This document shows, in pieces, positions 29,675 through 59,287 of a stretch of DNA of 59,287 bases. Positions within the stretch are counted from its first letter, which is position 1, and the number at the start of each line of letters is the position of its first letter. Under the pieces are notes generated by a model. That model was not told the DNA's origin, ran no database searches, and saw nothing but the letters and a program-made list of their open reading frames with translations. The stretch lies in the NCBI RefSeq assembly GCF_004358095.2, contig NZ_SMZJ02000011.1, forward strand, positions 1 to 59,287, in the 5' to 3' direction. Origin of the DNA: Seonamhaeicola sediminis (GTDB taxonomy: Bacteria; Bacteroidota; Bacteroidia; Flavobacteriales; Flavobacteriaceae). The translations under genes were made by a program, and so were the position numbers.

Positions 29675-30670
29675 TTAATGTGTAAACTGGTAATCGGCAA
29701 ACTTATCCAATACCTCATCAAAAGTAGCAAACACATCTTCGGGTTTATCGCTAGTTACCATTTTGGTGCGGTACTCTTTAAAGTGCGGAATACCTTTAAA
29801 GTAGTTGGTATAATGACGACGCGTTTCAAAAACACCTAAAACAGGTCCTTTCCAATCTATTGCCATTTGTAAATGCCTTCTAGCTGCTTCTACACGCTCT
29901 TCTAAAGAAATTGGTGCTAAATGCTCTCCTGTTTCAAAATAATGCTTAACCTGTTTAAAGAACCAAGGATTTCCAATACTGGCTCGACCAATCATAGCCC
30001 CATCTAGCCCAAACTTATCACGCATTAAAGCTGCTTTTTCAGGCGTATCAACATCGCCGTTTCCAAACACGGGAATGTGCATTCTTGGGTTATTTTTTAC
30101 CGCAGCAATCAGTTTCCAATCGGCACTTCCCTTGTACATCTGCGCGCGGGTTCTACCGTGAATAGAAATAGCTTTACAGCCTACATCTTGCAAGCGCTCA
30201 GCCACCTCAACAATTCTTATAGAATCATGATCCCAACCCAAACGGGTTTTAACAGTAATGGGCAAATTGGTACGCTTCACCATTTCTGCCGTGAGCTTTT
30301 CCATTAAACAAACATCCTTTAAAATGCCTGCACCAGCACCTTTACTCACTACCTTTTTTACGGGACACCCAAAGTTAATATCAATGATATCTGGATTCGA
30401 TTTTTCAACAATATCAATGGTTTGTAACATGCTATCTAAATTGGCTCCAAAAATTTGAATGCCTACAGGGCGCTCTTTTTCATAAATATCTAACTTCATA
30501 ACGCTCTTAGCAGCGTTACGTATTAAACCCTCACTAGACACAAATTCGGTATACACCACATCAGCACCTTGCTCTTTACATAAAGCACGAAACGGCGGAT
30601 CACTCACGTCTTCCATAGGTGCTAAAAGCAACGGAAAATCGGGCAATTCTATGTTGTCTATTTTTACCAC
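29675..30670 (-). CDS. dusB: tRNA-dihydrouridine synthase
   Basis: This 331-residue FMN-dependent TIM-barrel enzyme reduces uridine to dihydrouridine in tRNA D-loops. It shows LLLAPMEDVSDPPFR at the start of the barrel, the catalytic cysteine in INFGCPVKKVVSKGAG, the ITVKTRLGWD strand, the IHGRTRAQMY motif and the FMN phosphate site VFGNGDV. Full length for DusB. The start is GTG at 30670. It is monocistronic. Confidence 0.94.
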   Translation of the reverse strand: MVKIDNIELPDFPLLLAPMEDVSDPPFRALCKEQGADVVYTEFVSSEGLIRNAAKSVMKLDIYEKERPVGIQIFGANLDSMLQTIDIVEKSNPDIIDINFGCPVKKVVSKGAGAGILKDVCLMEKLTAEMVKRTNLPITVKTRLGWDHDSIRIVEVAERLQDVGCKAISIHGRTRAQMYKGSADWKLIAAVKNNPRMHIPVFGNGDVDTPEKAALMRDKFGLDGAMIGRASIGNPWFFKQVKHYFETGEHLAPISLEERVEAARRHLQMAIDWKGPVLGVFETRRHYTNYFKGIPHFKEYRTKMVTSDKPEDVFATFDEVLDKFADYQFTH

Positions 30671-30731
30671 AGCATGATTTTGGTTTGCAAAATTACTGTT
30701 TTTTATTCTACTTGATAAAAGATAATAAAAT

Positions 30732-31493
30732 TTACATTCCCATCCATTGCTTAATAGTTTCGTTATAACTACGCCCAGATGTAATACTTATTGCGCTCTT
30801 ATTATTTAGCGTAATAATAAATCTACTATTAAAATACGTTTGAATATCTTTTACATGGTCCTTGTTGATAATAATACCTCTATGAATGCGTAAAAAATTA
30901 TCAGGTAATTTCTGCTCTAACCCCGAAATTGTTTCTGTACTCAAATGATTTTGGAAGTCGCAATGTATGGTTACATAATTGTCATTGGCTTCAAAATAAA
31001 GTACATCTTCAAGTTTTATAAAAATGAGTTTATCTCTTTTCTTAACCGTTATAGAGGTCATTTTTTTAGGGGCTTTTTTATTTGAAATTTCCTTTAAAAC
31101 ATTAAGTATTTCATCTGTTGATTTACTTTTACTAAAGGTTTTTAGTTTTTCTACCGTTTTTTTAAGACGTTCCTGTTTTACCGGTTTTATCAAATAATCA
31201 ATGCTATTGGTCTCAAAGGCTTGTAGGGCATATTCGTCGTAAGCTGTACAGAACACTACCATGGGTATGGTTTGTAAATTTGCTAACAAATCAAAACCTG
31301 TTTGTCCGGGCATTTCAATATCTAAAAAGATAATATCTGGTGTTTGCCGTTCTATTTTTTCTTTGGCTTGGGTAACATTTTCGGCGGTGCCTATAACTTG
31401 AAACGTTTCAGGGAATGCTTTAAGCATATTTTTCAAACCTAATCTGGCAGGCGCTTCATCGTCTATTATTATAGTGGTGTACGGTGTATTCAT
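30732..31493 (-). CDS. LytTR-family response regulator
   Basis: This 253-residue regulator has a receiver domain at about 5-120 with acidic pocket DDE at 11-13 and phospho-acceptor Asp58 (IIFLDIEMPG), and a LytTR DNA-binding domain at about 150-250 (VLYFEANDNYVTIHC, FLRIHRGIIINKDHV). It is the partner of the histidine kinase encoded immediately upstream. I chose ATG at 31493, one base after the kinase stop, over a TTG that would overlap it. Confidence 0.93.
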   Translation of the reverse strand: MNTPYTTIIIDDEAPARLGLKNMLKAFPETFQVIGTAENVTQAKEKIERQTPDIIFLDIEMPGQTGFDLLANLQTIPMVVFCTAYDEYALQAFETNSIDYLIKPVKQERLKKTVEKLKTFSKSKSTDEILNVLKEISNKKAPKKMTSITVKKRDKLIFIKLEDVLYFEANDNYVTIHCDFQNHLSTETISGLEQKLPDNFLRIHRGIIINKDHVKDIQTYFNSRFIITLNNKSAISITSGRSYNETIKQWMGM

Positions 31494-31494
31494 A

Positions 31495-33381
31495 TTATAC
31501 AATTTCGGGTAGGGTTATCGTAATTACTTTCTTTGGCGTATTTATCCAATTTAGTGAAGCCTTATTGCCATAACTTAGCTTTAGCAAATCATAAACGGTT
31601 TGCAAGCCATGGCCACTTACCAAACCTTCTGGGAAATTGGGCCCATTATCGCTAACGGAAATCAACAACTTACTATCCTTTTTTTCAATTTTTAAATTAA
31701 TTTTTCCTTCCTCTTCATTTTTAGAAATGCCATGTTTTACAGCATTTTCTACCAGTGGTTGAATCAAAAACAAGGGTATCTCGTGATTTAAAAGGCTTTC
31801 ATCAACTTGAATACGAAACTGTAAACGCTCTCCAAAACGTATTTTTTCAATATCTAAATACGACGTTACCATATCTATTTCGTCTTTAACCGTACTCATT
31901 TTTTTGCCTTGTCGATTTATGGAATACTTAAATAATTCGGATAGTGAATGTGCCATTTTTTGGGTTTTACTTGCATCTATTGGTGCTAAACTAGCTATGG
32001 AGTTTAAAGAGTTATATAAAAAATGAGGGTTGATTTGGGATTGCAACAATTTAGTTTCTGCTTGGGCATGTAAAGTTTTTAAGTTGTTAATTTCAACGTC
32101 CTTTTCATTCACTAGCGACTGTGAATAATGGTTTAGGTAAATTAGAATTCCGCGACCAATTGATAAAAACCCATATAATAAAAACCCTGACCAATGATAT
32201 GATAATGTTGAAAGGGAACTGTCGTCTATAATAATTAATAAATAAGGCCAATAGAAAATTATAAACGTAAGTAATATTTTGAAGCCCAAACTTACACTAA
32301 ACCCCCAGGATTTCTTAATTATACGTTTTTCAAAAAACCAAAGCAGTAATGCTCCTAATGATGAAAAAATAATTGATGACAATATATCATCACTTATGTA
32401 ATCCATCCATTTTACGAACAAGCTGAAAGAAGTAAAATACTTATAAACCCTACTCAAACAAGCAAAGCAAATCATAATTAATAAAATTGGGAGAAAATAA
32501 TTTAGATACTCATATTTGAACTTCTTATAATGAAAAACACTGAATAGTAGAATAAAAAACAGAAGTCCTATGCCGCATATAATCAACCAAACTTTTTTCA
32601 AATAGTTGTCTTTATCTAAGAAATGATTGGCATATCTCCAGCCATAAACAACTTTCATGTATGCTTTTAAATCTTGTTCAAAATTTGGACTGTAGAATTT
32701 CTGCATGACAAGTTCGTCAGATAGACTAACATTTTGATTTATATAATCATCCGAGATATGAAAACTATTAGCAGATAAGATTTTAAAAATGACGTTTTTA
32801 AATATCTGGGCTCTTTCTTCAACATTAATTAATTCCAAAAAACTAAAATTCGTTTTAGAATTTAAATACCCTGCTAATTTAAATGGATAAGTTTGTGATT
32901 GGAATGTATTAAAAGTTTCATTGTCATCTACTCCAAGCATTGTTTCTATAGTAAACGGTCCTTTCTTATCAATTTGAGTTATTTTAAATTTGATAATATA
33001 AGGTTTCAAAAAATTAATTGAATAACCATTTACTATACTGTCCTTATCTATTTCATTGCGCTTTATATAACTTGAAAAATAATCTATTTCTAAATGGGGC
33101 AACAAGCCTTTAAAATATTGTAAAGTCTTGTCAAAGGCTAAACTATCTTTATCTACTGCGCCACTAAGTTTAAACAGAATAGGACCTTTATACTTTAAAA
33201 GTGTTTTTGATTTTGATATACCTCTACCATAAACCTGTGTTATAATACGTTCCCAAGTAGGGTCTTTCTGTTCGTTTAATTCATTTTTAAAAATCTTTTC
33301 ATTGATTGATTCAGAATTAGAAGAAACAATTGTAACATCAATTAATATCAATACAAGAACTAAAAAAAATAGGTTTTTCAT
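31495..33381 (-). CDS. LytS-like sensor histidine kinase
   Basis: This 628-residue kinase has an N-terminal signal or TM segment and an extracytoplasmic region (about 25-265) without a known sensor fold. Five or six TM segments (about 270-405) follow, then a short coiled coil (NEKDVEINNLKTLHAQAETK). The His_kinase domain has phospho-acceptor His453 in NPHFLYNSLNS, and the HATPase region has LVENAVKHG and SDNGPNFPEGLVSGHGL. With the LytTR regulator it forms a two-component pair in a two-gene leftward operon. The stimulus is unknown. Confidence 0.9.
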   Translation of the reverse strand: MKNLFFLVLVLILIDVTIVSSNSESINEKIFKNELNEQKDPTWERIITQVYGRGISKSKTLLKYKGPILFKLSGAVDKDSLAFDKTLQYFKGLLPHLEIDYFSSYIKRNEIDKDSIVNGYSINFLKPYIIKFKITQIDKKGPFTIETMLGVDDNETFNTFQSQTYPFKLAGYLNSKTNFSFLELINVEERAQIFKNVIFKILSANSFHISDDYINQNVSLSDELVMQKFYSPNFEQDLKAYMKVVYGWRYANHFLDKDNYLKKVWLIICGIGLLFFILLFSVFHYKKFKYEYLNYFLPILLIMICFACLSRVYKYFTSFSLFVKWMDYISDDILSSIIFSSLGALLLWFFEKRIIKKSWGFSVSLGFKILLTFIIFYWPYLLIIIDDSSLSTLSYHWSGFLLYGFLSIGRGILIYLNHYSQSLVNEKDVEINNLKTLHAQAETKLLQSQINPHFLYNSLNSIASLAPIDASKTQKMAHSLSELFKYSINRQGKKMSTVKDEIDMVTSYLDIEKIRFGERLQFRIQVDESLLNHEIPLFLIQPLVENAVKHGISKNEEEGKINLKIEKKDSKLLISVSDNGPNFPEGLVSGHGLQTVYDLLKLSYGNKASLNWINTPKKVITITLPEIV

Positions 33382-33449
33382 CACAGTAAATTTAAAATTT
33401 ATACCTCAAAAGAACCGAGATAAAAATCTTTTTAAAACCACTTTCTTGT

Positions 33450-33560
33450 AAACTGCAAATTTGGTTTGCAAACTGCATAATAAGGTTATTTGTAGTTTAC
33501 AATTCACAAACATATTTAACTATCTTTGCAGTCGCTGTTTTAAACAGCAACATTTGGACT
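33450..33560 (+). promoter_or_regulatory. lepA upstream region: -7 box and 15-bp palindrome
   Basis: TATCTTTG at 33521-33528 fits TAnnTTTG, but no TTG at proper spacing is seen. Immediately downstream GCTGTTT-T-AAACAGC (33534-33548) is a perfect palindrome that would form a hairpin at the very 5' end of the mRNA. Further up, TGCAAA/TTTGCA flank a short loop near 33455-33471. These could be an operator or a protective 5' hairpin. Confidence 0.45.
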
Positions 33561-35357
33561 ATGAAGAACATCAGGAATTTTTGCATTATTGCCCATATTG
33601 ATCACGGTAAAAGCACCCTTGCAGACCGTTTATTGGATCACACAGGCTCGGTTACCGCCAGAGAAAAGCAAGACCAGCTATTAGATAATATGGATTTAGA
33701 GCGCGAACGTGGTATTACCATTAAAAGTCACGCCATACAAATGGATTATGAATACAACGGCGAAAAATATATATTAAATCTCATTGACACCCCTGGACAT
33801 GTAGATTTCTCTTATGAAGTATCTCGTTCTATTGCTGCTTGTGAAGGCGCTCTATTAATTGTAGATGCCGCTCAAAGCATACAAGCTCAAACCATTTCTA
33901 ATTTGTACTTAGCTTTAGAAAATGACTTAGAAATTATTCCTATTTTAAACAAAGTAGATTTACCTAGTGCCAACCCTGATGAGGTTACTGATGATATTGT
34001 AGATTTATTGGGTTGCGACCCAGAAGAAGTCATTCATGCTAGTGGTAAAACTGGCTTTGGGGTGGATAATGTTTTGGCTGCTATTATAGAGCGTATTCCA
34101 GCGCCAAAAGGCGATCCAAATGCGCCATTACAAGCCTTAATTTTCGATTCGGTTTATAACACCTTTCGTGGTATTGAAACCTATTTTAGAGTGTTTAATG
34201 GTGAAATTAAAAAAGGACAACACATTAAGTTTGTTGCTACTAATAAAGATTATTATGCTGATGAAGTAGGTACTTTAAAATTGACCCAAGTTGCCAAACA
34301 AAGTGTAAAAACGGGTGATGTTGGCTATTTAATCACAGGAATTAAAACAGCTAAAGAAGTAAAAGTTGGTGATACCATTACCGATTTTGCAAAACCTACA
34401 CAAAATATAGTTGAAGGGTTTGAAGATGTAAAACCTATGGTATTTGCAGGTATTTACCCAGTTGATACTGAAGACTACGAAGATTTAAGAGCCTCTATGG
34501 AAAAGCTTCAGCTTAATGATGCTTCTCTAGTATTTCAACCAGAAAGTTCTGCTGCTTTAGGCTTTGGGTTTCGTTGTGGATTTTTGGGGATGCTTCACAT
34601 GGAAATTATCCAAGAACGTTTGGAACGTGAGTTTGATATGACGGTGATCACTACAGTTCCTAACGTATCCTATCACGCATACACCAATAAAGAACCAGAC
34701 GAAGCCATTATTGTAAATAATCCGTCTGATTTACCCGAACCTTCCACTTTAAATCGTGTTGAAGAACCTTATATAAAAGCCACTATCATCACAAAAGCAG
34801 ATTTTGTGGGCAATGTCATGTCGTTGTGTATTGAAAAACGTGGTATCATCAACAATCAAACGTATTTAACTACAGAACGCGTTGAGTTAATTTTTGAAAT
34901 GCCATTGGCAGAAATAGTGTTTGATTTTTATGATCGGTTAAAAACGGTATCAAAAGGGTATGCCTCTTTTGATTACCATCCTATTGGCATGAAACCCTCT
35001 AAATTAGTTCGGTTAGATATATTACTAAACGCACAACCTGTTGATGCGCTTTCGGCACTAATTCATACCGATAATGCACAGCACATAGGTAAAAAAATGT
35101 GTGAGAAGCTAAAAGAACTCATTCCACGCCAACAGTTTGATATTCCTATTCAAGCAGCCATTGGTGCTAAGATTATTTCTAGAGAAACTGTAAAAGCATT
35201 ACGTAAAGATGTAACTGCCAAATGTTATGGTGGTGATATTTCTCGTAAACGCAAACTACTTGAAAAACAGAAAAAAGGTAAAAAACGTATGCGTCAGGTG
35301 GGTAATGTTGAGATTCCGCAACAAGCGTTTATGGCCGTTTTAAAACTAAACGATTAA
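33561..35357 (+). CDS. lepA: Elongation factor 4 (LepA)
   Basis: This 598-residue translational GTPase shows G1 [11 protein letters not shown]3 DTPGH and G4 NKVD, and the LepA-specific C-terminal domain with [21 protein letters not shown]4 remobilises stalled or mis-translocated ribosomes. Full length. It is a single gene transcribed away from the kinase operon. Confidence 0.97.
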
Positions 35358-35369
35358 GGATAAACTATC

Positions 35370-35618
35370 TATCAAAATTGGAAACAAAAGTTTGAAGGCT
35401 CTGAGTTTAAAAACAACTTTACAGTAGGACTTATTAACAAACAAAACATTTTACAATGTCTTTGGTTTGGACTGTAGTAATCGCCAGAAATCGATAAAAC
35501 TTTATTTGAATTAAATCTAAAAACCTTCATTGAAAAACATGAGGGTTTTGTTTCGCCTACCAAGTATCTTGCAGGAACTATAAGGCCATTATTGAACAAC
35601 TTTAAAAAAACCTACTAG
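35370..35618 (+). pseudogene. Remnant of an unidentified gene with two tandem stops and no start
   Basis: One frame encodes YQNWKQKFEGSEFKNNFTVG and then INKQNILQCLWFGL, meets TAG TAA in tandem, and continues SPEIDKTLFELNLKTFIEKH, EGFVSPTKYLAGTIRPLLNN and FKKTY before a TAG at 35616-35618. The even amino-acid composition on both sides of the stops suggests a decayed C-terminal gene piece. I do not recognise the parent protein. It has no start codon and sits 13 bp after lepA. Confidence 0.6.
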
Positions 35619-35863
35619 TGCCTACCAGAACACGGTCTTAATTTTTATAGAATATTACCACCAAAATTCAGTATTTGTTGAATTTCTTTAACTAAAATTT
35701 CAATAATCCTCAATAATCTTTTTTTTTTCTCAAAAATGAGATTTCAACAAAGTTATTAACAATATTTTTGTATGTTTATAAACCAACCTCTCTCCCCTTT
35801 TTTGGTTTCGAGGTATTTTAAGAACTAGAATTATTAACTACCAAACCTTTTGAAAAATCGTTT
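35619..35863. other. Leader region of the glycogen locus
   Basis: This 245-bp non-coding region contains the inverted repeat AAATTCA/TGAATTT (about 35668-35690), a poly-T tract, and TATTTTTG at about 35763-35770, which fits a -7 box, although no TTG at the right distance is visible. I see no gene. Confidence 0.4.
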
Positions 35864-37066
35864 ATGAAAGCTCTTTTTTTTACTAGAGAATTTCCACCTT
35901 ATGTTTATGGTGGTGCTGGAGTTCATGTTGAATATCTGGCTGCAGAATTAGCAAAATTAATGAAGATTGATGTTAGATGTTTTGGAGATCAAAATGAAGA
36001 AAACAATAATCTTACAGTAAAAGGCTTTCCTTATGATAATGCGCTTTTCAATGACTCAAATAGTAAGCTTAAATCTGTTTTTCAAACCTTAAGTACAGGC
36101 ATTCACATGAATGCGGAAGAGATTGATGCTGATGTTGTTCACTGCCATACTTGGTATGCGCATTTTGCAGGTATCGTAGCCAAATTGTGTTACGGCATTC
36201 CGCTAGTAATAACCACGCACTCTCTAGAGCCCTTAAGACCTTGGAAAAGAGAACAATTAGGAAGAGGATATGATGCTTCTTCTTGGGTTGAAAAAACAGC
36301 TATAGAAATGGCCGATGCGCTAATTGCAGTTTCCGAGGAGACCAAAGAAGATGTTATCAAACATTTTAACGTTGATGAAAGCAAAATCCATGTAATTTAT
36401 AACGGCATAGATTTGCAACAATATCAGGTCACCGCTGCAACTAACACTTTAGATACCTATGGTGTTGACAAATCTAAACCTTATGTGCTTTTTGTTGGTA
36501 GAATAACACGCCAAAAAGGAATCATACATTTAGTGAATGCCATAAAATATATAGATTCAGAAACACAAATAGTATTGTGTGCAGGCGCTCCAGACACGCC
36601 TGAAATTGGTAAAGAAATGGAGGATGCTGTTAACGAAGTTAAGAAAACCAGAGCTAATGTGATTTGGATTGATAAAATGGTGACCAAAGAGGAAATTATT
36701 CAACTGTATTCACATGCCAGTGTTTTTTGTTGCCCATCTATATATGAGCCTTTCGGAATTATAAATATCGAAGCCATGGCTTGCAATACAGCTGTTGTAG
36801 CCAGTGCTGTAGGCGGCATTAAAGAAGTTGTAGTTCATGGAGAAACAGGATTATTAATACCGTTAGAACAACAAAATGTGGCACCTTTTGAGCCTGTGAA
36901 CCCCGATAAATTCTCTAGAGATTTAGCCAATGGCATCAATAAAGTCATTGCCGATAAAGAGCTAAGAAACGCTATGGCAAAAAAAGGAAGAAAGCGTGTA
37001 GAAGATTACTTTGATTGGATAGCTATTGCTAAGCAAACCGAAGAACTCTATAAGTCATTGCTATAA
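35864..37066 (+). CDS. glgM: GT4 glycogen synthase / maltose-1-phosphate synthase (GlgM type)
   Basis: This 400-residue GT-B glycosyltransferase has the N-terminal donor/acceptor domain start ALFFTREFPPYVYGGAGVHV, a middle DVVHCHTWYAHFAG, and the C-terminal sugar-nucleotide site VFCCPSIYEPFGIINIEAMA with a following GGIKEVVVHGETGLL. It is the 'Corynebacterium-type glycogen synthase' (GT4), not the longer GT5 GlgA. In actinobacteria this type (GlgM) condenses ADP-glucose with glucose-1-phosphate to maltose-1-phosphate, which GlgE then polymerises. Because glgC and glgE are neighbours, the same role is likely here. A direct glucan-elongating activity cannot be excluded. Confidence 0.85.
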   Translation: MKALFFTREFPPYVYGGAGVHVEYLAAELAKLMKIDVRCFGDQNEENNNLTVKGFPYDNALFNDSNSKLKSVFQTLSTGIHMNAEEIDADVVHCHTWYAHFAGIVAKLCYGIPLVITTHSLEPLRPWKREQLGRGYDASSWVEKTAIEMADALIAVSEETKEDVIKHFNVDESKIHVIYNGIDLQQYQVTAATNTLDTYGVDKSKPYVLFVGRITRQKGIIHLVNAIKYIDSETQIVLCAGAPDTPEIGKEMEDAVNEVKKTRANVIWIDKMVTKEEIIQLYSHASVFCCPSIYEPFGIINIEAMACNTAVVASAVGGIKEVVVHGETGLLIPLEQQNVAPFEPVNPDKFSRDLANGINKVIADKELRNAMAKKGRKRVEDYFDWIAIAKQTEELYKSLL

Positions 37067-37103
37067 CATTTACAACAACTATCACTAAATAAAAATAACT
37101 ATT

Positions 37104-38372
37104 ATGATAAATGACAAGGTTTTATCGATTATTTTAGGAGGAGGGCAAGGTTCAAGATTATATCCCTTAACAGAAAAACGTTCAAAACCAGCAGTTCCTA
37201 TAGCTGGGAAATATCGATTGGTAGACATTCCTATTTCTAACTGTATTAATGCAGATATAAAACGTATTTATGTATTAACCCAATTTAACTCTGCGGGTTT
37301 AAATAAACATATTAAAAACACCTATCAATTTAGTTTTTTTAGTAGTGCTTTTGTTGATGTATTGGCTGCAGAACAAACACCTGAAAATAAGACTTGGTTT
37401 CAAGGAACGGCTGATGCGGTAAGACAATGTATGCCTCATTTTTTAGGGAATGATTTTGAATATGCCTTAATTTTATCAGGTGACCAATTATATCAGATGG
37501 ATTATGATAAAATGATTGAAGCGCATGAAGCAGCAGGTGCAGAAATTTCTATAGCTACCATTCCTGTTAATGCTAAAGATGCTACTGGTTTTGGTATTCT
37601 TAAGGCAAACAACGAAAATATTATTACATCTTTTATTGAAAAACCAGATGCCAGCTTATTACCAGATTGGACATCAGAGGTAAGTGATGATATGAAAAAC
37701 GAAGGGCGTCATTATTTAGCATCTATGGGTATTTATATCTTTAATAAAGATTTGTTGGTTACATTGATGGACAATCAAGACACTATGGATTTTGGTAAAG
37801 AAATCATTCCACAATCTATTGGTTCTCATAAAACCCTAAGCTATCAATATGAAGGGTATTGGACAGATATAGGAACCGTAGAATCCTTTTTTGAAGCTAA
37901 TTTAGGGTTAACTGACAGCATACCACAGTTTGATCTCTACGACAATAATAGACGTATTTACACCCATGCTAGAATGTTGCCAACTACAAAGGTTGCAGGA
38001 ACTCTTTTAGAAAAAGCAGTAATTTCTGAAGGTTGTATAATAGCCGCTACTAAAATTGAAAAATCAGTGATTGGAATTCGTTCCAGAATAGGAAAAGAAA
38101 CTACTATAATCAACACCTATATGATGGGTAATGATTATTTTGAAACACTTAAGGAGATGGAATCCAATAAAATTGAAATCCTTATGGGAATTGGCGAACG
38201 TTGTTTTATTAAAAATTGTATTATTGATAAAAACTGTCGAATTGGTGACGATGTTAAAATTGTTGGTAGCAAGCTTCTTGAGGACACAGAAACAGACACC
38301 TACTGTGTAAGGGATGGTATTGTTATTATCAAAAAAGATGCTATAATTCAAAAAAATACAATCATAGAATAA
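37104..38372 (+). CDS. glgC: Glucose-1-phosphate adenylyltransferase
   Basis: This 422-residue enzyme makes ADP-glucose from ATP and glucose-1-phosphate. Visible features are the nucleotide-binding LGGGQGSRLYPLTEKRSKPA and YRLVDIPISN, the catalytic LSGDQLYQMDY, the sugar-phosphate site FIEKPD, GYWTDIGTVESFFEANL, and a C-terminal left-handed beta-helix. It lies 37 bp downstream of glgM and supplies that enzyme. Full length for GlgC. Confidence 0.96.
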   Translation: MINDKVLSIILGGGQGSRLYPLTEKRSKPAVPIAGKYRLVDIPISNCINADIKRIYVLTQFNSAGLNKHIKNTYQFSFFSSAFVDVLAAEQTPENKTWFQGTADAVRQCMPHFLGNDFEYALILSGDQLYQMDYDKMIEAHEAAGAEISIATIPVNAKDATGFGILKANNENIITSFIEKPDASLLPDWTSEVSDDMKNEGRHYLASMGIYIFNKDLLVTLMDNQDTMDFGKEIIPQSIGSHKTLSYQYEGYWTDIGTVESFFEANLGLTDSIPQFDLYDNNRRIYTHARMLPTTKVAGTLLEKAVISEGCIIAATKIEKSVIGIRSRIGKETTIINTYMMGNDYFETLKEMESNKIEILMGIGERCFIKNCIIDKNCRIGDDVKIVGSKLLEDTETDTYCVRDGIVIIKKDAIIQKNTIIE

Positions 38373-38426
38373 TATTAATTCTTAACAATCAATCGTTTTC
38401 GCGGGGTTTAGGTTGTTTTCATCATT

Positions 38427-38454
38427 TTGAAAATCACTTTATTTATTAATTTTG
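38427..38454 (+). promoter_or_regulatory. Promoter of glgE-mak-glgB
   Basis: TTG (38427-38429), 17 bp, and TAATTTTG (38447-38454) match the flavobacterial consensus. It lies 25 bp before the glgE ATG, so the second half of the locus has its own promoter. Confidence 0.7.
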
Positions 38455-38479
38455 CGTACTTCAAAACCAACAAGATAAC

Positions 38480-40417
38480 ATGCAAAATCAGAAAAGAGTT
38501 GTAATAGATTATGTAGCACCAAAAGTTAATGGTGGTCAATTTTTTATAAAAAGAATAGTTAACGAAATAGTAAATGTTGAAGCTCATATTCTTGCAGACG
38601 GACATGACGTTTTAGGAGCATCGGTTCTTTATAAACACGAAACAGACAACCATTGGAAAGAGACTCGCATGCATTTAGATGTAAATAACGAGTGGAAAGG
38701 AGCTTTCACGGTTGGAAAACAGGGTTTCTATACCTACAAAGTAGAGGCTTGGGTTGATTATGCCCTTAACTGGCAACATGGTATTGAAAGAAAGATTGAA
38801 GACAATCAGTATGTAAAGTCAGAACTACTGGAAGGCATTGAGTATCTTAAAGCCATCAAAGATGGTTTAGAACAAAATGATTCATTTTACTTAGACCATC
38901 TCATCAATATTTTTGGTAATGAACAGCATTATGATGAAGCCATTGCTGAAGCACAAAGCGATAGGTTACATTATATATTTTTCAACAACCCTCAAAAAAT
39001 ATTAGCAAATACCTCTGCTGAATATCAAGTTTACGTAGATAGAAAAAAGGCTAGATTTAGCACATGGTATGAATTTTTTCCTCGTTCTGCCTCAGAACAC
39101 AAGGGGGTTCATGGAACGCTTAAAGACTGTGAGCGTTTATTACCTCGCGTTCAAAAAATGGGTTTTGACACCCTATATTTACCCCCTATTCATCCTATAG
39201 GAGAGGTGAATAGAAAAGGAAAAAACAACACCACAGAAGCTTTTGAGGGCGATGTAGGCTCTACTTGGGGAATTGGGTCACAATATGGCGGACACAAAGA
39301 TATTCATCCTCAACTAGGAACTTTAGACGATTTTAAATCTTTAATACATAAGGCAAAAGAACACGGTATTGAAATAGCCATGGACTATGCGTTGCAAGCA
39401 GCTCCAGACCACCCATGGGTAAAAGAACACCCGCAATGGTTTAAATGGCGACCAGACGGCACCGTACAATATGCTGAAAATCCGCCAAAAAAATATCAGG
39501 ATATATTACCAATTTATTGGGAAAGCAAAGACTATAAAGCCCTGTGGCAAGAATGCTTAGATATTTTATTGTATTGGATTGATTGCGGTATTAACGTATT
39601 TAGAGTAGATAATCCACATACCAAGCCCTTCTATTTCTGGCATTGGATTATTGAAAATGTAAAAGCAAAACATCCTGATGTTATCTTTTTGGCTGAGGCC
39701 TTTACAGCGCCTAAAGTCATGCAGCAATTGGCAAAACAAGGCTACACACAATCTTATACCTACTTTACATGGAGAAACTCTAAACATGAACTCATAGAGT
39801 ACGTTGAAGAGTTAACCCAAAGTAATTCGCGGGAATATATGCAGCCAAATTTTTGGCCTAATACCCCAGATATAAACCCTTACCATTTACAAGGAGCTAA
39901 TGAGTCTAAGCACATTCAGCGCTATGTGCTAGCAGCAACGTTAAGTTCCAGTATTGGTATTTACGGTCCGGTTTACGAATATATGTTAAGCGATGCTTTA
40001 TTGGGGCGTGAGGAGTACAATAACTCTGAAAAGTTTCAAATTACACACTACGATTGGTCTATTGAAAATAAATTAACTATAGTTATCTCTAAAATCAACC
40101 ATTTAAGACATCAAAATGAGGCGCTTCAACAAACAAATAACATCAAGTTCTGTTATGTTGAAAACGATAAATTAATGGCTTTTTACAAATGGAACGATGC
40201 TAAAACTAACGAACTGTTAATTGTTATTAGTTTAGATGACCATGGTATGCAACAAGGCTCTGTACAAGTGCCTCTAAATGATTTGGGCATGGATAACAAC
40301 CATTCATTTCAAGTTAAAGATTTAATTACCAATAGCAGCTACAACTGGAGAGGAGCATGGAACTTTGTAGAATTACACCCAACATTACCATTCCATATTT
40401 TTGAAATAAAGAAATAG
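38480..40417 (+). CDS. glgE: Alpha-1,4-glucan:maltose-1-phosphate maltosyltransferase
   Basis: This 645-residue GH13_3 enzyme transfers maltosyl units from maltose-1-phosphate to the non-reducing end of alpha-1,4-glucans. An N-terminal beta-sandwich domain (about 1-120) and helical region precede the TIM barrel. Signature segments are FSTWYEFFPRSAS, LYLPPIHPIG and FRVDNPHTKPFYFW with the nucleophile Asp377, and FLAEAFTAPKVM with the acid/base Glu406. Length is typical of GlgE. It is the first gene of glgE-mak-glgB, with a 3-bp gap to mak. Together with glgC and glgM it completes the GlgE route. Confidence 0.93.
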   Translation: MQNQKRVVIDYVAPKVNGGQFFIKRIVNEIVNVEAHILADGHDVLGASVLYKHETDNHWKETRMHLDVNNEWKGAFTVGKQGFYTYKVEAWVDYALNWQHGIERKIEDNQYVKSELLEGIEYLKAIKDGLEQNDSFYLDHLINIFGNEQHYDEAIAEAQSDRLHYIFFNNPQKILANTSAEYQVYVDRKKARFSTWYEFFPRSASEHKGVHGTLKDCERLLPRVQKMGFDTLYLPPIHPIGEVNRKGKNNTTEAFEGDVGSTWGIGSQYGGHKDIHPQLGTLDDFKSLIHKAKEHGIEIAMDYALQAAPDHPWVKEHPQWFKWRPDGTVQYAENPPKKYQDILPIYWESKDYKALWQECLDILLYWIDCGINVFRVDNPHTKPFYFWHWIIENVKAKHPDVIFLAEAFTAPKVMQQLAKQGYTQSYTYFTWRNSKHELIEYVEELTQSNSREYMQPNFWPNTPDINPYHLQGANESKHIQRYVLAATLSSSIGIYGPVYEYMLSDALLGREEYNNSEKFQITHYDWSIENKLTIVISKINHLRHQNEALQQTNNIKFCYVENDKLMAFYKWNDAKTNELLIVISLDDHGMQQGSVQVPLNDLGMDNNHSFQVKDLITNSSYNWRGAWNFVELHPTLPFHIFEIKK

Positions 40418-40420
40418 CCT

Positions 40421-42049
40421 ATGACCAAAATGGCAGGAGAGATAACTGTTGAGCAAACCTTCAATTTTGATACCAATTGGGAGGTATTATTGGAAAATGA
40501 AGCGTTTGTAAAAGCATTCCTGTCTGATGTTTTAGGTGATTACATGCTAAAACAGCGTTGGTATGGTGGTAAAGCCAGTAATATTAAGTACATTGAACTT
40601 GCAGAATATTTTAAAATTCAGCAAGATGGCGAAGTGTATTTTGGATTAATTCTAGAAGTTAATTTCGTTGAAGCTTTTTACCAGCATTACTTTTTACCTA
40701 TAGCCTTTGTAACCGATGAGAATTTTGCAAAGAAAGACAGGATTCTTTCCATTAGCATTAAAAATCAAAAAGGACATATTATTGATGCTGTAAATCTGGA
40801 GTCTTTTAGGAAATTAGTGTTTGAACGTATTCTTACAGCACTTCCAAAAGATACTACCAAAGTTCAGTATCATAAAAGTCATTTATTAGATGGTGTAGTT
40901 TACGAATCATCTAGATTTATGGGACTTGAACAAAGTAACACCTCTATTGTTTACAATGAAAACTATGTTCTAAAATTCTTTAGACGTATTTATGCCGATA
41001 AAAATCCAGACTATGAGATGTCTCGTTTCTTATCGGAAAAGAAAGAATTTAAAAATACCCCACCTTATTTGGGTAGTATCAATGTTCTTGACTCTGAAGA
41101 AAACAATATTACCATTGCACTCATGCAACAAATGATTCCTAATGAAGGGGATGCTTGGGAATATATGTTGAAAGAGTTTCATACCGTATTTGAAAATATT
41201 GGGCAAAAAAAAATTGACATCAACACATTGCCCAATACCGAATTATATCAGCGACTTTCAGTTAACGATATACCGCCCCAAATAATTGATTGGGTTGGGT
41301 TAGATCTATTTTTAAAAATTCAAAAACTAGCAAAACGTACTGCAGAAATGCACATTGCTCTTGGTTCTGAGTTTGAAGAAACCGCCTTTACACCCGCCAA
41401 CTTTAATGGAGATTACACCGTTTGGTTAAAGAACCGTATGTTATATCAATTTCAAAACAGATTGAATATTATTGAAAATAATCTTCATAATTTAGAAGGG
41501 CTTTCATTGCAGCTTGCCAAAGAATTTTTAGATAAAAAAAATCAAATAAGAAAACGCTTTTTGTCTTTTGATTGGACGAAGCTTAAAAGTGAACGCATTA
41601 GGATTCATGGTGATTATCATTTAGGACAAATTTTGGTACATGACAATGATTTCTATATTCTTGATTTTGAAGGCGAACCCGAAAGCACCATCAGAGACCG
41701 TAAAGTAAAGCAACCTGCTTTAAAAGATGTTGCGGGCTTATTTAGGTCGTTTCATTATGCTATTTATGGAACTATTTTTAATAATTTTAAGACCTATAAT
41801 ATCTCTCAAGACAATTTATTTAAAGCTGGAGAGTTATGCTACCGCTACTTAACTGGTTTGTTTTTAGGTACTTATGTTGCCGAAATACAAGAAGCCAACT
41901 TAAATCTAGGATATAACCAAGAACGCATATTTATTTTAAAATACTGTTTACTTGAAAAAGCAGTTTATGAGTTGGGTTATGAACTCAATTCGCGCCCACA
42001 ATGGGCAGTCATCCCTTTAAAGGGTATTTCTAATATTATAAACCATTAA
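40421..42049 (+). CDS. mak: Maltokinase (Pep2/Mak-like)
   Basis: This 542-residue protein begins its conserved N-terminal cap at YMLKQRWYGGKASNI and carries the kinase core HGDYHLGQILV (Asp398) and LDFEGEP (Asp414), the standard maltokinase motifs. It phosphorylates maltose to maltose-1-phosphate with ATP, feeding GlgE. In many bacteria Mak is fused to or beside trehalose synthase TreS; no treS is visible in this window, so maltose may come from elsewhere or treS may lie outside. It is coupled to glgE (3 bp) and glgB (13 bp). Confidence 0.88.
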   Translation: MTKMAGEITVEQTFNFDTNWEVLLENEAFVKAFLSDVLGDYMLKQRWYGGKASNIKYIELAEYFKIQQDGEVYFGLILEVNFVEAFYQHYFLPIAFVTDENFAKKDRILSISIKNQKGHIIDAVNLESFRKLVFERILTALPKDTTKVQYHKSHLLDGVVYESSRFMGLEQSNTSIVYNENYVLKFFRRIYADKNPDYEMSRFLSEKKEFKNTPPYLGSINVLDSEENNITIALMQQMIPNEGDAWEYMLKEFHTVFENIGQKKIDINTLPNTELYQRLSVNDIPPQIIDWVGLDLFLKIQKLAKRTAEMHIALGSEFEETAFTPANFNGDYTVWLKNRMLYQFQNRLNIIENNLHNLEGLSLQLAKEFLDKKNQIRKRFLSFDWTKLKSERIRIHGDYHLGQILVHDNDFYILDFEGEPESTIRDRKVKQPALKDVAGLFRSFHYAIYGTIFNNFKTYNISQDNLFKAGELCYRYLTGLFLGTYVAEIQEANLNLGYNQERIFILKYCLLEKAVYELGYELNSRPQWAVIPLKGISNIINH

Positions 42050-56261: not shown

Positions 56262-57437
56262 ATGTATAATAATAAGCCTGCTGTAGTTCTTGAAAACAAG
56301 TTGCATAGAAATGCTGAGCAAATATTAATTAAGTTTGCTTATAATGAATCGCTTATAGCTATTGTTAAAGCCATTCCTGGCGCTCTATGGAGTACCCGAT
56401 TAAAGAGTTGGTATACCCCGCTTTCAGCAAAAAATCTTAACCATATAAAAGCAGCCTTACAACCAGTAGCATTGGTAAAAGATCAGGTTGTATTTACCCA
56501 ATTGAATAGTAGCAGACATCAAAAACGAAAGCGTGTTCTTAACGAAAGTTCTAGAAAAATATTATTGGGGTATATGCAATATTTAAAAGGCAAACGCTAC
56601 AGTGATAGTACTGTAAGAACCTATTTAACTTTAACAGCAGATCTTATTGAGTTTTATAATGATGTTGATATTATAAATTTAAACAACCGTAGTGTAGAGG
56701 TGTTTATAGAACAAGTTATGGTGCCAAAACAATATGCTATTAGCACACATAGGCAATTTATAAGTTCATTAAGGCATTTTAAAGCCTACTACCCCGAATG
56801 CCAGATAGATGAATTACAATTAGAGCTTCCTAAAAAAGACAAGTTGCTTCCAACGGTACTCTCAAAAGAAGAGGTTATAGATTTAATTAGAACTACTGCC
56901 AACTTAAAACACCGCTGCATTATTGCTTTACTTTACGCCTGCGGACTGCGCATTGGCGAATTAATTAACTTAGAACTAAACCATATTGATATAGACAGAA
57001 AACAGTTATTTATTAAAAAAGCAAAAGGCAGAAAAGACCGTTATGTAATTCTTGCCGATTCGTTTTTACCATTATTAAGTAATTATTTAAGTACCTATAT
57101 GCCATCTTTTTATTTATTTGAAGGACAAGGTAAAAATAAATATAGTGCCGAAAGTATCCGCTCATTTTTAAAGCGTAGTTGTAAAACAGCGCGTATAAAA
57201 AAACGTGTTACACCGCATACATTACGGCATAGTTATGCCACCCATCTTTTAGAAAATGGTATAGACATTAGGTATATTCAAGAACTTTTAGGACATGCTA
57301 GACCCGAGACCACTATGGTATATACTCATGTTACCAAAAAAGATTTACTAGATATTAAAAGCCCATTAGATATTGCTGTAAAAAGCTTAAAACTTAGCAA
57401 TGATAATGCCCCTTTATTGAAAAGTAGAAATTTGTAA
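56262..57437 (+). CDS. IntI-like tyrosine recombinase of the cassette array (no additional domain)
   Basis: This 391-residue recombinase starts at ATG 56262; a TTG nine codons upstream is open but less likely. Residues 1-65 look like a HARP-type DNA-binding domain (IKFAYNESLIAIVKAIPGAL, KSWYTPL). Residues about 95-180 are the SAM-like core-binding domain. Residues about 195-375 are the catalytic domain with a complete set: Arg230 (ACGLRIGEL), Lys254/258, His319 and Arg322 (PHTLRHSYATH), His345 (LLGHARPET) and Tyr354 (TTMVYTHV). The end YTHVTKKDLLDIKSPLD matches integron integrases (YTHV...vrSPLD). However, the stretch between the beta hairpin and HxxR (about 265-315) is too short for the IntI additional domain. 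It is transcribed toward the cassettes, opposite to classical integrons. Confidence 0.85.
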   Translation: MYNNKPAVVLENKLHRNAEQILIKFAYNESLIAIVKAIPGALWSTRLKSWYTPLSAKNLNHIKAALQPVALVKDQVVFTQLNSSRHQKRKRVLNESSRKILLGYMQYLKGKRYSDSTVRTYLTLTADLIEFYNDVDIINLNNRSVEVFIEQVMVPKQYAISTHRQFISSLRHFKAYYPECQIDELQLELPKKDKLLPTVLSKEEVIDLIRTTANLKHRCIIALLYACGLRIGELINLELNHIDIDRKQLFIKKAKGRKDRYVILADSFLPLLSNYLSTYMPSFYLFEGQGKNKYSAESIRSFLKRSCKTARIKKRVTPHTLRHSYATHLLENGIDIRYIQELLGHARPETTMVYTHVTKKDLLDIKSPLDIAVKSLKLSNDNAPLLKSRNL

Positions 57438-57556
57438 ATTTTTTATGACAAAGACGAAAATAAATTTATATTTTTAACTTATAAATCCAATATGAAAGTT
57501 TGTTTATACCGCACAATTTCACAGAATAAACAAACCTTTTGATTGGATATAACACG
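57438..57556 (+). other. attI-like primary insertion site region
   Basis: This is the 119 bp between the recombinase stop and the first cassette boundary G57556|TT. It contains a perfect 10-bp inverted repeat GTTTGTTTAT/ATAAACAAAC (57498-57507, 57526-57535) and ends ATATAACACGTTGG, where TATAAC and GTTGG face each other at the crossover. No 5' partner long stem of the attC kind is present, as expected for an attI. Assignment is by position and by the cassette boundaries downstream. Confidence 0.65.
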
Positions 57557-57571
57557 TTGGCTGTAATTGAA

Positions 57572-58273
57572 ATGAAACAAACTTTATACTTTATAATACT
57601 AACCGGACTTTTAAGCTGTCAGAACTCTGAAAAGAAAGTTGAACTGAAAAGTAAAGACTGTAATAACACAAAACTTGTGAGCTACATTTATCCGATTAGC
57701 AATTTTACTAATGAAAAAACTTTTGTCTACTCTTTAAAATCGAATAGTGAATCTAAAACTGAATTGTTTAAAAAAAGATATTCATTAAAAGTTGATAAAG
57801 ATTCTTTACTTTTTAGTGTTACAGAAAACTCTCAAGGAATAGTAACTGACTCAACTATATTTACTCTGACCAATGGAATTCCGAAAGTTCTAGAATCTTT
57901 CACAAGAGTAGATGTATATCCCGAATTGTTACCAACCAAGGATTCTATCGTTGGAAATAGATTTTGTGAATTCGGAACTTTTGGAAATTCATTTGAGTAT
58001 GAAATACCTTTTAATGGTAAAATGGTTTCAAGAAAGTTTCAGGGACATACAACTCATAAAGAATACGTGAAAAAAGTGTTTAATGGAATAGAATATAACT
58101 GTGCAATAATGGAATCACGAAAAACATTGACAGCTGAATTTAATGGGCAAACGGAAAAATTAAATGGAACTTGGACAGGTTGTACTTGCGAAGGTTTGGG
58201 AGAACTATATTCGACAACTAAAACCGAAAATGGAATGGTGATTGAACACAAACTTGAAGAAATAATTGAATAA
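57572..58273 (+). CDS. Cassette-encoded lipoprotein of unknown function
   Basis: This 233-residue protein from ATG 57572 has a lipoprotein signal MKQTLYFIILTGLLSCQNSE (lipobox Cys at 16). The rest is beta-rich and has two neighbouring cysteines near the end (TWTGCTCEGLGELY). I recognise no family. An upstream in-frame TTG at 57539 lies outside the cassette boundary, so the ATG just inside it is the proper start. It is expressed from either its own promoter or one upstream of the array; none is clear. Confidence 0.75.
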   Translation: MKQTLYFIILTGLLSCQNSEKKVELKSKDCNNTKLVSYIYPISNFTNEKTFVYSLKSNSESKTELFKKRYSLKVDKDSLLFSVTENSQGIVTDSTIFTLTNGIPKVLESFTRVDVYPELLPTKDSIVGNRFCEFGTFGNSFEYEIPFNGKMVSRKFQGHTTHKEYVKKVFNGIEYNCAIMESRKTLTAEFNGQTEKLNGTWTGCTCEGLGELYSTTKTENGMVIEHKLEEIIE

Positions 58274-58281
58274 AAAACAAC

Positions 58282-58411
58282 TACAGCCAACAATGTATAA
58301 CCGCAATTACGGCGGATTCGACTACGTCCGAATCCACTCGGAATTGCTAACGTCTGTTCTAAACCGAAAAACATTAACTTTAAATCCGTAACTGACGGTT
58401 ATACGAGACCG
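58282..58411 (+). repeat. attC1-like recombination site
   Basis: Left end: TACAGCCAAC (58282-58291), a 3-nt spacer, then GTATAACCG. Right end: CGGTTATAC, a 6-nt spacer GAGACC, then G|TT at 58411. GTATAACCG/CGGTTATAC pair perfectly, and inside them TTACGG/CCGTAA and then GGATTCG/CGAATCC form further stems. In the excised circle the left decamer pairs with G58411 plus the cassette's own first nine bases. Length 130 bp. This is the R''-L''-L'-R' order of attC. Confidence 0.8.
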
Positions 58412-58438
58412 TTGTGTTTAATTTAAAAACCACGATAG

Positions 58439-58876
58439 ATGAAAGAAAGTGAGGAAAATATTGAATTATATTATGCAGACCCAAGAATAATTAGGTTTGA
58501 TGTCAACACTTCTTTTTTAGATAAAAAAATTCAGCCTCTAGGAAGTTTAAATATGGTCGTAGAACCAAAATGTTGGCAAAAAGAAAAACCAGAAGACAAA
58601 ATATTAATAATGTTGCGCTTTAGAGCAAGCATAGTTAATTACAATGTAAACACTGAAGTATTTGGATGTGTTTATGAATTTATCGCAGGAGTTGTACCTC
58701 AATATAATGAAATTGATATAGAAGGCATCAAGGAATATGTCGGTGACGCGTTTTTAAACTTCCAAACTTATTTTGAACAAAACGTTCCAAAAGAAATAAA
58801 ACACATAAGATTTGACACGGATGTGGATAAAGAAGAATTGTCAGTTAGGTTACTAGATTTAGTCTATAAAGGGTAG
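58439..58876 (+). CDS. Cassette-encoded hypothetical protein
   Basis: This 145-residue soluble protein (IELYYADPRIIRFDVNTSFL, later MLRFRASIVNYNVNTEVFGC and a final VDKEELSVRLLDLVYKG) has an alternating beta pattern and no signal. The strand order vaguely recalls SecB-like chaperones, but I would not assign that. It is the only sizable rightward frame in cassette 2, starting 28 bp after the cassette boundary. Confidence 0.7.
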   Translation: MKESEENIELYYADPRIIRFDVNTSFLDKKIQPLGSLNMVVEPKCWQKEKPEDKILIMLRFRASIVNYNVNTEVFGCVYEFIAGVVPQYNEIDIEGIKEYVGDAFLNFQTYFEQNVPKEIKHIRFDTDVDKEELSVRLLDLVYKG

Positions 58877-59019
58877 TTTTTATAGACAGCAATGGAATCT
58901 CCTTCGATTGGTTTAATGCTTTTAATACGCTCCAATTCGGAATTAGAAAGGAATTTAACTTTTGTTTTTGACTTGTTAGACCAAACGAATTTACCATTTG
59001 CGAAATACTGTTCTGACAT
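58864..59019 (-). CDS. Possible small antisense-oriented cassette gene
   Basis: A 51-residue frame (starts MSEQYFANGKFVWSNKSKTK, ends SIAVYKNYPL) on the minus strand overlaps the end of the 145-aa gene by 13 bp and stops before attC2 begins. Its composition is protein-like and more convincing than the other frames over the same bases. A convergent small gene in the same cassette would suit a toxin-antitoxin or modulator pair, but it may be chance. Confidence 0.35.
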   Translation of the reverse strand: MSEQYFANGKFVWSNKSKTKVKFLSNSELERIKSIKPIEGDSIAVYKNYPL

Positions 59020-59027
59020 AAAAAAAC

Positions 59028-59153
59028 TAAACACAACACAGGCTATAATTCATTGCTTTTTAGGGCGTACTTTGAAAATTACAGACCACCATTGTTTTTC
59101 GTTGACCTAATTTTTTAACGGCTCGACCACGCAACGAAATCATAGCCAAACCG
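59028..59153 (+). repeat. attC2-like recombination site
   Basis: Left end: TAAACACAAC, a 3-nt spacer ACA, then GGCTAT. Right end: ATAGCC, a 5-nt spacer AAACC, then G|TT at 59153. GGCTATaATT pairs with AATcATAGCC, and TTGC/GCAA pair further in. Length 126 bp. Sequence differs from attC1, but the geometry (short left spacer, longer right spacer, paired L boxes, terminal CAAC/GTTG) is the same. Confidence 0.78.
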
Positions 59154-59287
59154 TTGCCATTCATTGGCGGAACGCACTCAAACTGAAAATAAAAAATGAA
59201 AAAAGTATTAAAAATAATTTCTACAATATCTATTATATTATTTGGAATCTTATGGATTTCAAGCAAATTTGATTTCTTGACCGAATA
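59154..59287 (+). mobile_element. Start of gene cassette 3 (runs off the window)
   Basis: It begins after G59153 with TTGCCATTC. By the rule seen twice above, its own attC should begin with GAATGGCAAC or a close match to it, beyond the window end. Confidence 0.6.
59196..59287 (+). CDS. Cassette 3 protein, N-terminal fragment (cut by window end)
   Basis: A frame starting MKKVLKIISTISIILFGILW encodes a hydrophobic N-terminal segment (signal anchor or one TM helix) in its first 30 residues and is open at the window end. It starts 43 bp after the cassette boundary. Nothing more can be said. Confidence 0.6.
   Translation, partial: MKKVLKIISTISIILFGILWISSKFDFLTE

Follow-up and report, generated by a model that had tools for sequence, protein, structure and literature searches.

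Integron-like cassette array beside a tyrosine recombinase outside the IntI clade in Seonamhaeicola sediminis and its relatives

Introduction

In classical integrons the pairing between the R' and R'' ends of a cassette site is described as extending past the 7-nt core, to 9-11 nt, and a conserved extrahelical base in the L stem as setting the choice of strand (PMC2727003). In the IntegronFinder 2.0 survey, which is based on IntI, Bacteroidetes are represented only by earlier In0 elements and one complete integron, from Salinibacter (PMC9024848), and a review counts Bacteroidota among the integron-bearing phyla (PMC8618304). Two experimental reports from this phylum are related to the present subject. 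When two sites of the Polaribacter phage P12002L were offered to IntI1, one was recombined, on the bottom strand only (PMC9892861). In Riemerella the insertion of a polymerase chain reaction (PCR) fragment that included 27 bp of 5' sequence and 140 bp of 3' sequence took place without homology; its likeness to attC was noted, and the mechanism was described as not fully elucidated (PMC13148043). Here we describe an array of gene cassettes behind a tyrosine recombinase at the end of a contig of Seonamhaeicola sediminis. The contig (G000:C3, where G000 is the genome of this organism) was analysed over its complete length of 59,287 bp and is referred to as the window.

Based on the sequence evidence gathered below, it is highly probable that the window holds one end, the one next to the recombinase, of a large array of mobile cassettes on the chromosome, and that this array functions in the manner of an integron. 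No publication on such arrays with a non-IntI recombinase was found among the open-licence papers listed, which is no proof of novelty.

The cassettes of the window

A preliminary description of this DNA, made from the letters alone, had placed two complete units (57557-58411 and 58412-59153) and the start of a third behind the recombinase, each cut at G|TT, and these coordinates were confirmed. The decamer GTTGGCTGTA at 57556-57565 recurs as its exact reverse complement TACAGCCAAC at 58282-58291, and GTTGTGTTTA at 58411-58420 recurs in the same manner as TAAACACAAC at 59028-59037, both at the predicted positions; the third unit opens with GTTGCCATTC at 59153. That such matches are unlikely by chance was borne out by the rest of the window, since within positions 1-56000 just 4 of 1044 10-mers starting with GTT are followed, at a distance of 300-1500 nt, by their exact reverse complement. 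In both units the match extends beyond 10 nt, with A at position 11 of the start facing G in the reverse-complemented far end and with positions 12-14 matching. The pairing of the decamers is real but not new in itself, as pairing over 9-11 nt is known from classical integrons (PMC2727003). The palindromes of 126-130 bp that had been seen to close the units agree with sites of 129-133 bases delimited by R1, a covariance model built from 44 bottom-strand-aligned sites of 17 loci. The end of the contig is the end of the window, so that the array is severed by the assembly. The features of the locus are as follows.

56262..57437, plus strand: tyrosine recombinase of 391 amino acids (NCBIfam/Pfam profiles, alignment)
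56262..56516, plus strand: N-terminal extension of the recombinase, predicted HARP/XPB-DRD-like fold (weak)
57482..57555, plus strand: attI-like site, with ATATAACAC directly before G|TT and, ahead of it, an imperfect inverted repeat (arms 57482-57507 and 57526-57551)
57557..58411, plus strand: cassette 1, with 10-nt complementary ends
57572..58273, plus strand: cassette 1 gene, 233 amino acids
58285..58417, minus strand: attC-like site of cassette 1 (R1 74.8 bits, bottom-strand fold; R1 training site)
58412..59153, plus strand: cassette 2, with 10-nt complementary ends
58439..58876, plus strand: cassette 2 gene, 145 amino acids
58864..59034, minus strand: small open reading frame (ORF) in cassette 2, 56 amino acids, doubtful as a gene
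59031..59159, minus strand: attC-like site of cassette 2 (R1 79.4 bits; R1 training site)
59154..59287, plus strand: start of cassette 3, truncated at the contig end

Neither cassette gene (233 and 145 amino acids) has a Pfam or NCBIfam match at E 0.001. The start of cassette 3 has a relative, 88% identical, elsewhere in the same genome (G000:C14:3057-3194). About 48 nt at the opening of cassette 2 (58411-58458) and much of its closing site recur in the first cassette of another locus (L177, 10701-10748), with the same end sequence, or tag, and a different gene in between, so that the two cassettes have their shell in common but not their cargo. The window also contains, at 24970-25371 on the minus strand, another tyrosine recombinase, which is distant (32% identity over residues 225-360).

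Structure and polarity of the cassette sites

Relatives of the recombinase were collected by a scan of species genomes, of which the best 80 of 100 were kept. Among these 80, 27 (L006-L032) come from Flavobacteriia or from metagenome bins bearing this name or that of Bacteroidia and are 43-92% identical over the best segment, the nearest being that of Seonamhaeicola aphaedonensis (92%); the other 53 are distant Xer- or IntI-like enzymes. The window and L006-L032 make up the 28 loci considered here. In these loci R1 gave 137 matches (E value up to 0.1), namely 129 on the bottom strand, the 44 training sites included, and eight weak ones on the top strand that overlie them. The bottom-strand matches occur in 24 of the 28 loci and every one lies downstream of the recombinase, no bottom-strand match being present upstream of it at the same threshold. 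The four loci with no R1 match (L012, L017, L028, L030) extend merely 90-200 nt behind the recombinase. In the S. sediminis genome 43 matches were found (E up to 0.001), of which 37, including the two of the window, are distributed over nine contigs, with one orientation per contig. Six single matches lie off the array contigs (C34:746176-746308, C1:47468-47600 and four weaker ones).

The fold of the sites is conserved. RNAalifold analysis of the 44 training sites gave 20 consensus pairs, 12 of them with compensatory changes on both sides, and three pairs are G.T in 44, 35 and 43 of the 44 sites. The central spacer is unpaired and asymmetric, with 5 nt on one side in 39 of 44 sites and 2 nt on the other in all 44. 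The consensus L stem has 11 uninterrupted pairs. A one-base bulge is optional, being present in 12 of the 44 sites, and a conserved extrahelical base sought in this stem was not found in them.

The polarity of the sites was evaluated in 107 units. Mismatches in the R stem are G.T on the bottom strand in 116 cases, G.T on the top strand in three and of other types in 70; in the L stem the corresponding numbers are 186, nine and 68. DNA folding energies favour the bottom over the top strand for the excised form in 106 of the 107 units and for the in-array form in 99; when the two forms of the bottom strand are compared, the excised one has the greater stability in 106. The bottom strand is thus favoured in folding (106/107 units) and may be the strand that recombines.

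Complementary ends and chains of cassettes

Units were delimited by the placement of R1 sites and not by the complementarity of their ends. In the 28 loci, start and far end are complementary over at least 8 nt in 108 of 128 units, and this holds for 38 of the 44 units closed by an R1 training site as well as for 70 of the 84 others; among 16,256 mismatched pairings, 402 (2.5%) attain this length. Complementarity over 10 nt, found in 67 units, is the maximum, since position 11 always differs: among the 108 units that obey the rule every start has A there and 95 of the far ends have G, which amounts to a G.T pair on the bottom strand, and positions 12-14 match in 79-94% of them. At the starts of these units position 4 is a purine in 107 of 108 cases, position 5 in 48 and position 6 in 59, so that the consensus GTTRRRY of integron cores was not found in them. 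A search for further cassettes obeying the same rule had been proposed as a check, and they are present on other contigs of the S. sediminis genome, where 18 of 22 testable units obey it over at least 9 nt (mismatched pairings, 8 of 462 over 8 nt).

Longer arrays were found in stretches of seven single-contig genomes, picked for holding sites and comprising 400 kb. These contain 349 R1 matches; a repeat of the search in two parts gave 357 (two of them halves of one site split between 20-kb pieces), of which 344 have the same direction as the array and one is opposite (L164:4948-5077); the other 12 are weak and duplicate stronger matches on the second strand. The longest chains of rule-obeying units comprise 39 units in G113, 36 and 20 at two places in G014, and 16 in G068, followed by 9 and 11 in G157, 4 in G025 and 1 each in G131 and G123. 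Four control stretches (80 kb in total) yielded two chance units and no linked pair. Two features of integrons are present in these arrays, i.e., tandem cassettes of one orientation, each closed by an attC-like site, and complementary R' and R'' ends with a G|TT edge (108 of the 128 units of the 28 loci).

In G113 (L152-L155), 36 units of 425-465 bp belong largely to a single repeated family; they carry four different tags, matched at both ends (the units were selected by that rule), and the three units inspected contain no ORF of 45 amino acids.

The arrangement of the sites bears on the suggestion that an Xer/dif or transposon-like module stands beside small genes by accident. The NCBIfam models and solved structures nearest to the recombinase do include XerA, XerC and XerD. 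As far as is known, dif systems have a single site, whereas dozens of sites of one orientation, each closing a different unit, occur here in many genomes, and an accident of this kind is extremely improbable.

An attI-like site and the movement of cassettes

Of the 28 loci, 27 show a motif of the type ATA(A/T)AACNN|GTT, a pattern composed after inspection of the loci, next to the recombinase on its downstream side; in L017 the contig stops there. Ten pairs of relatives, nine of them close and not all independent, were compared on both sides of G|TT. The nine close pairs are 76-91% identical over 300 nt before G|TT and 49-53% after it, the latter near the level of shuffled sequences (45-51%), and the tenth, more distant pair is 68% and 46% identical, respectively. 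In all ten pairs the first cassettes differ exactly from attI|GTT on, and the motif together with this stop in identity points to an attI beside the recombinase. Of the 27 loci checked, 15 carry the sequence TANNTTT, the -7 motif of Bacteroidota, at -22/-23 relative to the edge and 16 carry it anywhere between -40 and -7, compared with a frequency of 23% in shuffles and 9% in random windows; it was not seen at -40 to -7 in the window, L006 or L007. This motif suggests that the attI-like site may contain a promoter.

Draft contigs end 90-1021 nt behind the recombinase in L006, L012, L017, L028 and L030. Repeated sites that break the assembly are perhaps the cause, and arrays may be under-counted in draft genomes.

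Whole cassettes are shared between genomes. Taking as the same unit those with at least 75% identity over 85% of both units, 14 cross-genome pairs were found among 530 rule-obeying units. The top seven pairs (88-98% identity; two of them have one partner in common, and G113 carries two copies) were examined for their flanks. The cassettes share their edges at G|TT, and similarity of the flanks is absent on the right in seven of seven pairs and on the left in the six that were testable. One cassette is the first of the L027 array and internal in the L185 array, next to recombinases of different classes, and a cassette of S. sediminis (C13) is shared with G014 at 88%.

These edges also discriminate against the view that the sites are dispersed repeats or terminators and that cassettes spread by homologous recombination between them. 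The abundance of the sites, their occurrence in sequence families and the six matches that lie off the array contigs of S. sediminis would agree with it. Homologous recombination, however, would not set edges at G|TT between unrelated flanks, nor would it preserve 10-14 nt of complementarity between the opposite ends of a unit, which do not pair with one another in the array; we consider this view very improbable. The preliminary description had inferred a mobile cassette system and had named as contrary outcomes the lack of further sites and relatives without boundary changes at G|TT. As far as the data allow, these did not refute it: close relatives are similar before G|TT and at background after it, identical cassette edges recur in different genomes, and the inference is supported.

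Distribution and cargo

In a sample of the family, 126 of 199 genomes contain a match to the recombinase (E 1e-40) and 172 of 199 contain R1 sites (E 1e-6; at most 16 sites were scored per genome); in a sample of the phylum, sites are present in 91 of 345 genomes. Among 516 units of up to 3 kb (14 longer units of the 530 were left out of this count) the longest ORF reads forward in 398 and in reverse in 21, and 97 have no ORF of at least 60 amino acids. At E 0.001, 102 cassette proteins match 37 Pfam families; of the 25 families listed, 23 are represented by a single protein (among them methylase, Fic, SMI1, barstar and glyoxalase) and ParE by two.

Plasmid-borne versions exist as well, since on a Chryseobacterium plasmid (L191, 9013-17712) four R1 sites, all of the same orientation, stand behind a related recombinase. 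On a Flagellimonas plasmid (L193, 6892-7733) two R1 sites flank a gene of the dihydrofolate reductase family, with a Tn3 transposase and erm(F) close by. Ten R1 matches with E values of up to 0.001, a few of which are short, were obtained in the lytic Polaribacter phage P12002L (L151), at 14499-14628 and 30005-40952; several are near methyltransferase genes.

The recombinase

The catalytic residues R, K, H, R, H and Y are invariant in 26 aligned recombinases, and the window enzyme matches Pfam Phage_integrase at 4.5e-41. It scores 191.7 bits against the IntI model TIGR02249 (cut-off 265) and 210.1 bits against the XerA-type model NF040815 (cut-off 220), with the caveat that NCBI names the latter "site-specific tyrosine recombinase/integron integrase"; the core fold resembles XerA and IntI4 (Foldseek). 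The spacing from K to HxxR is 64-67 residues in all 27 flavobacterial recombinases measured and 106-108 in 17 IntI-like rows; in these 17 the K box was caught by the pattern used, which missed or mis-hit the others. In a tree, 35 rows that we labelled IntI-like fall on one side of a branch with support 100/99, with no flavobacterial row among them, and 14 rows of the class of the window recombinase fall on one side of another (100/100). By spacing, TIGR02249 score and position in the tree, the additional domain specific to IntI was not found in this enzyme. The window recombinase fails the IntI tests made. Deeper forks of the tree are weak (73/82), and the four recombinases of divergent arrays fall on the IntI side of this weak fork, outside the IntI rows, so that the flavobacterial enzymes may have one origin or several. 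According to a published classification, conservation of the IntI insertion is incomplete in its integron-like subgroup (PMC8138268), so that enzymes such as those described here may already belong there, unlinked to arrays.

The N-terminal extension matches Pfam HARP at E 0.0064, below the cut-off of that family. It was predicted at a mean pLDDT (predicted local distance difference test) of 90, and its best Foldseek matches, with middling scores, are the HARP domain of SMARCAL1 (4o66, E 0.017) and archaeal XPB (DRD). Seven array recombinases of other classes (L172-L178) are devoid of the extension, which is consequently not required by all. Regarding layout, the recombinase reads toward the cassettes in the class of the window, L145, L172, L175, L176, L179 and L181-L185, and away from them in L173, L174, L177 and L178; the layout toward the cassettes is the atypical one of Treponema (PMC3607928).

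It can be argued that these are cassettes of classical integrons, moved by an IntI, and that the Xer-like neighbour is a bystander. In line with this, IntI1 is able to recombine a Polaribacter phage site (PMC9892861), and sites are present also in genomes with no close match to the window recombinase. The attI-like motif nevertheless stands behind this recombinase in 27 of 28 loci, with first cassettes that diverge exactly there in ten pairs, and none of the five recombinase matches of the S. sediminis genome (the next best being 34% identical) was identified as IntI, although no IntI-specific search was made. A bystander role is improbable, if less so than the spread by homologous recombination or the accidental module considered above. 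In our judgement, cassette capture resembling that of integrons, acting on folded single strands and run by tyrosine recombinases other than IntI, very probably accounts for these loci.

Proposed mechanism and weight of the evidence

In the mechanism that we consider likely, the bottom strand of a cassette site would become single-stranded and fold. The window recombinase would bind both stems and cut this strand at C|AA (G|TT on the top strand), and the cut strand would be joined to attI or to another site. Replication would then resolve the product, with cassettes leaving as circles and entering at attI. The experiments with P12002L and Riemerella may be taken as outside support for such a process, not as proof for the window recombinase.

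Several observations weigh against this interpretation. The link between recombinase and array is one of position only, and more genomes of the family hold sites (172/199) than a near relative of the recombinase (126/199). A plasmid of Chryseobacterium oryzae (L192) also carries a relative of the recombinase, yet the 9 kb flanking it in each direction gave no R1 match. Twenty of the 128 units break the 8-nt rule, nine matching over 5-7 nt and eleven over 3-4 nt; the latter often have a missed site in between, which does not explain all of them. Arrays are poor in two complete genomes, with five rule-obeying units in G131 and one in G123, none linked.

A further and less secure proposal, which we moderately favour, is that these arrays constitute an integron class of Flavobacteria in its own right, with recombinases that never had or have lost the IntI domain, folded strands, polarity encoded by G.T pairs and paired, cassette-specific end tags, and that part of the enzymes may hold the hairpin by a HARP/XPB-like domain. 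If this is true, IntI integrons would be one case of a wider mode of gene movement. If recombinases of the window class do the work, the IntI domain would be unnecessary for cassette capture, and the set of enzymes would offer a natural test of what capture needs. The single complete integron and the earlier In0 elements of Bacteroidetes in the IntI-based survey (PMC9024848) contrast with the 172 of 199 genomes of a single family that hold sites and with single arrays of many dozens of sites. A testable mechanism is also offered for the homology-free insertion with a 3' hairpin reported in Riemerella (PMC13148043).

Comparison with known systems

By sequence and by Foldseek, the core of the recombinase is best matched by XerA and archaeal Xer (5hxy, 4a8e). 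To our knowledge, no cassette arrays are known for recombinases of this group. The likeness of the N-terminal extension to the SMARCAL1 HARP domain and to the XPB DRD is at the level of the fold, with middling scores. The chromosomal integrons of Treponema use an IntI (PMC3607928), in contrast to the window enzyme, which fails the IntI tests.

Judged by the sequence tests applied, the system works in the manner of an integron, but the tests of enzyme, core consensus and extrahelical base do not place it among the IntI integrons. Unlike in IntI integrons, recombinases of the window class fall outside the IntI clade, are devoid of an insertion of IntI size and read toward the array. The flavobacterial core is GTT(G/A) followed by variable bases, compared with RRRY in IntI integrons, and polarity is marked by G.T pairs, no conserved extrahelical base having been found in the L stem. 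With the IntI integrons, such as those of class 1 and the Vibrio superintegron, the flavobacterial arrays share a recombinase at the head, an attI, tandem cassettes with hairpin sites and the G|TT edge, as well as the pairing of R' and R'', the asymmetric spacer, bottom-strand polarity, usually one gene per cassette and the formation of large arrays.

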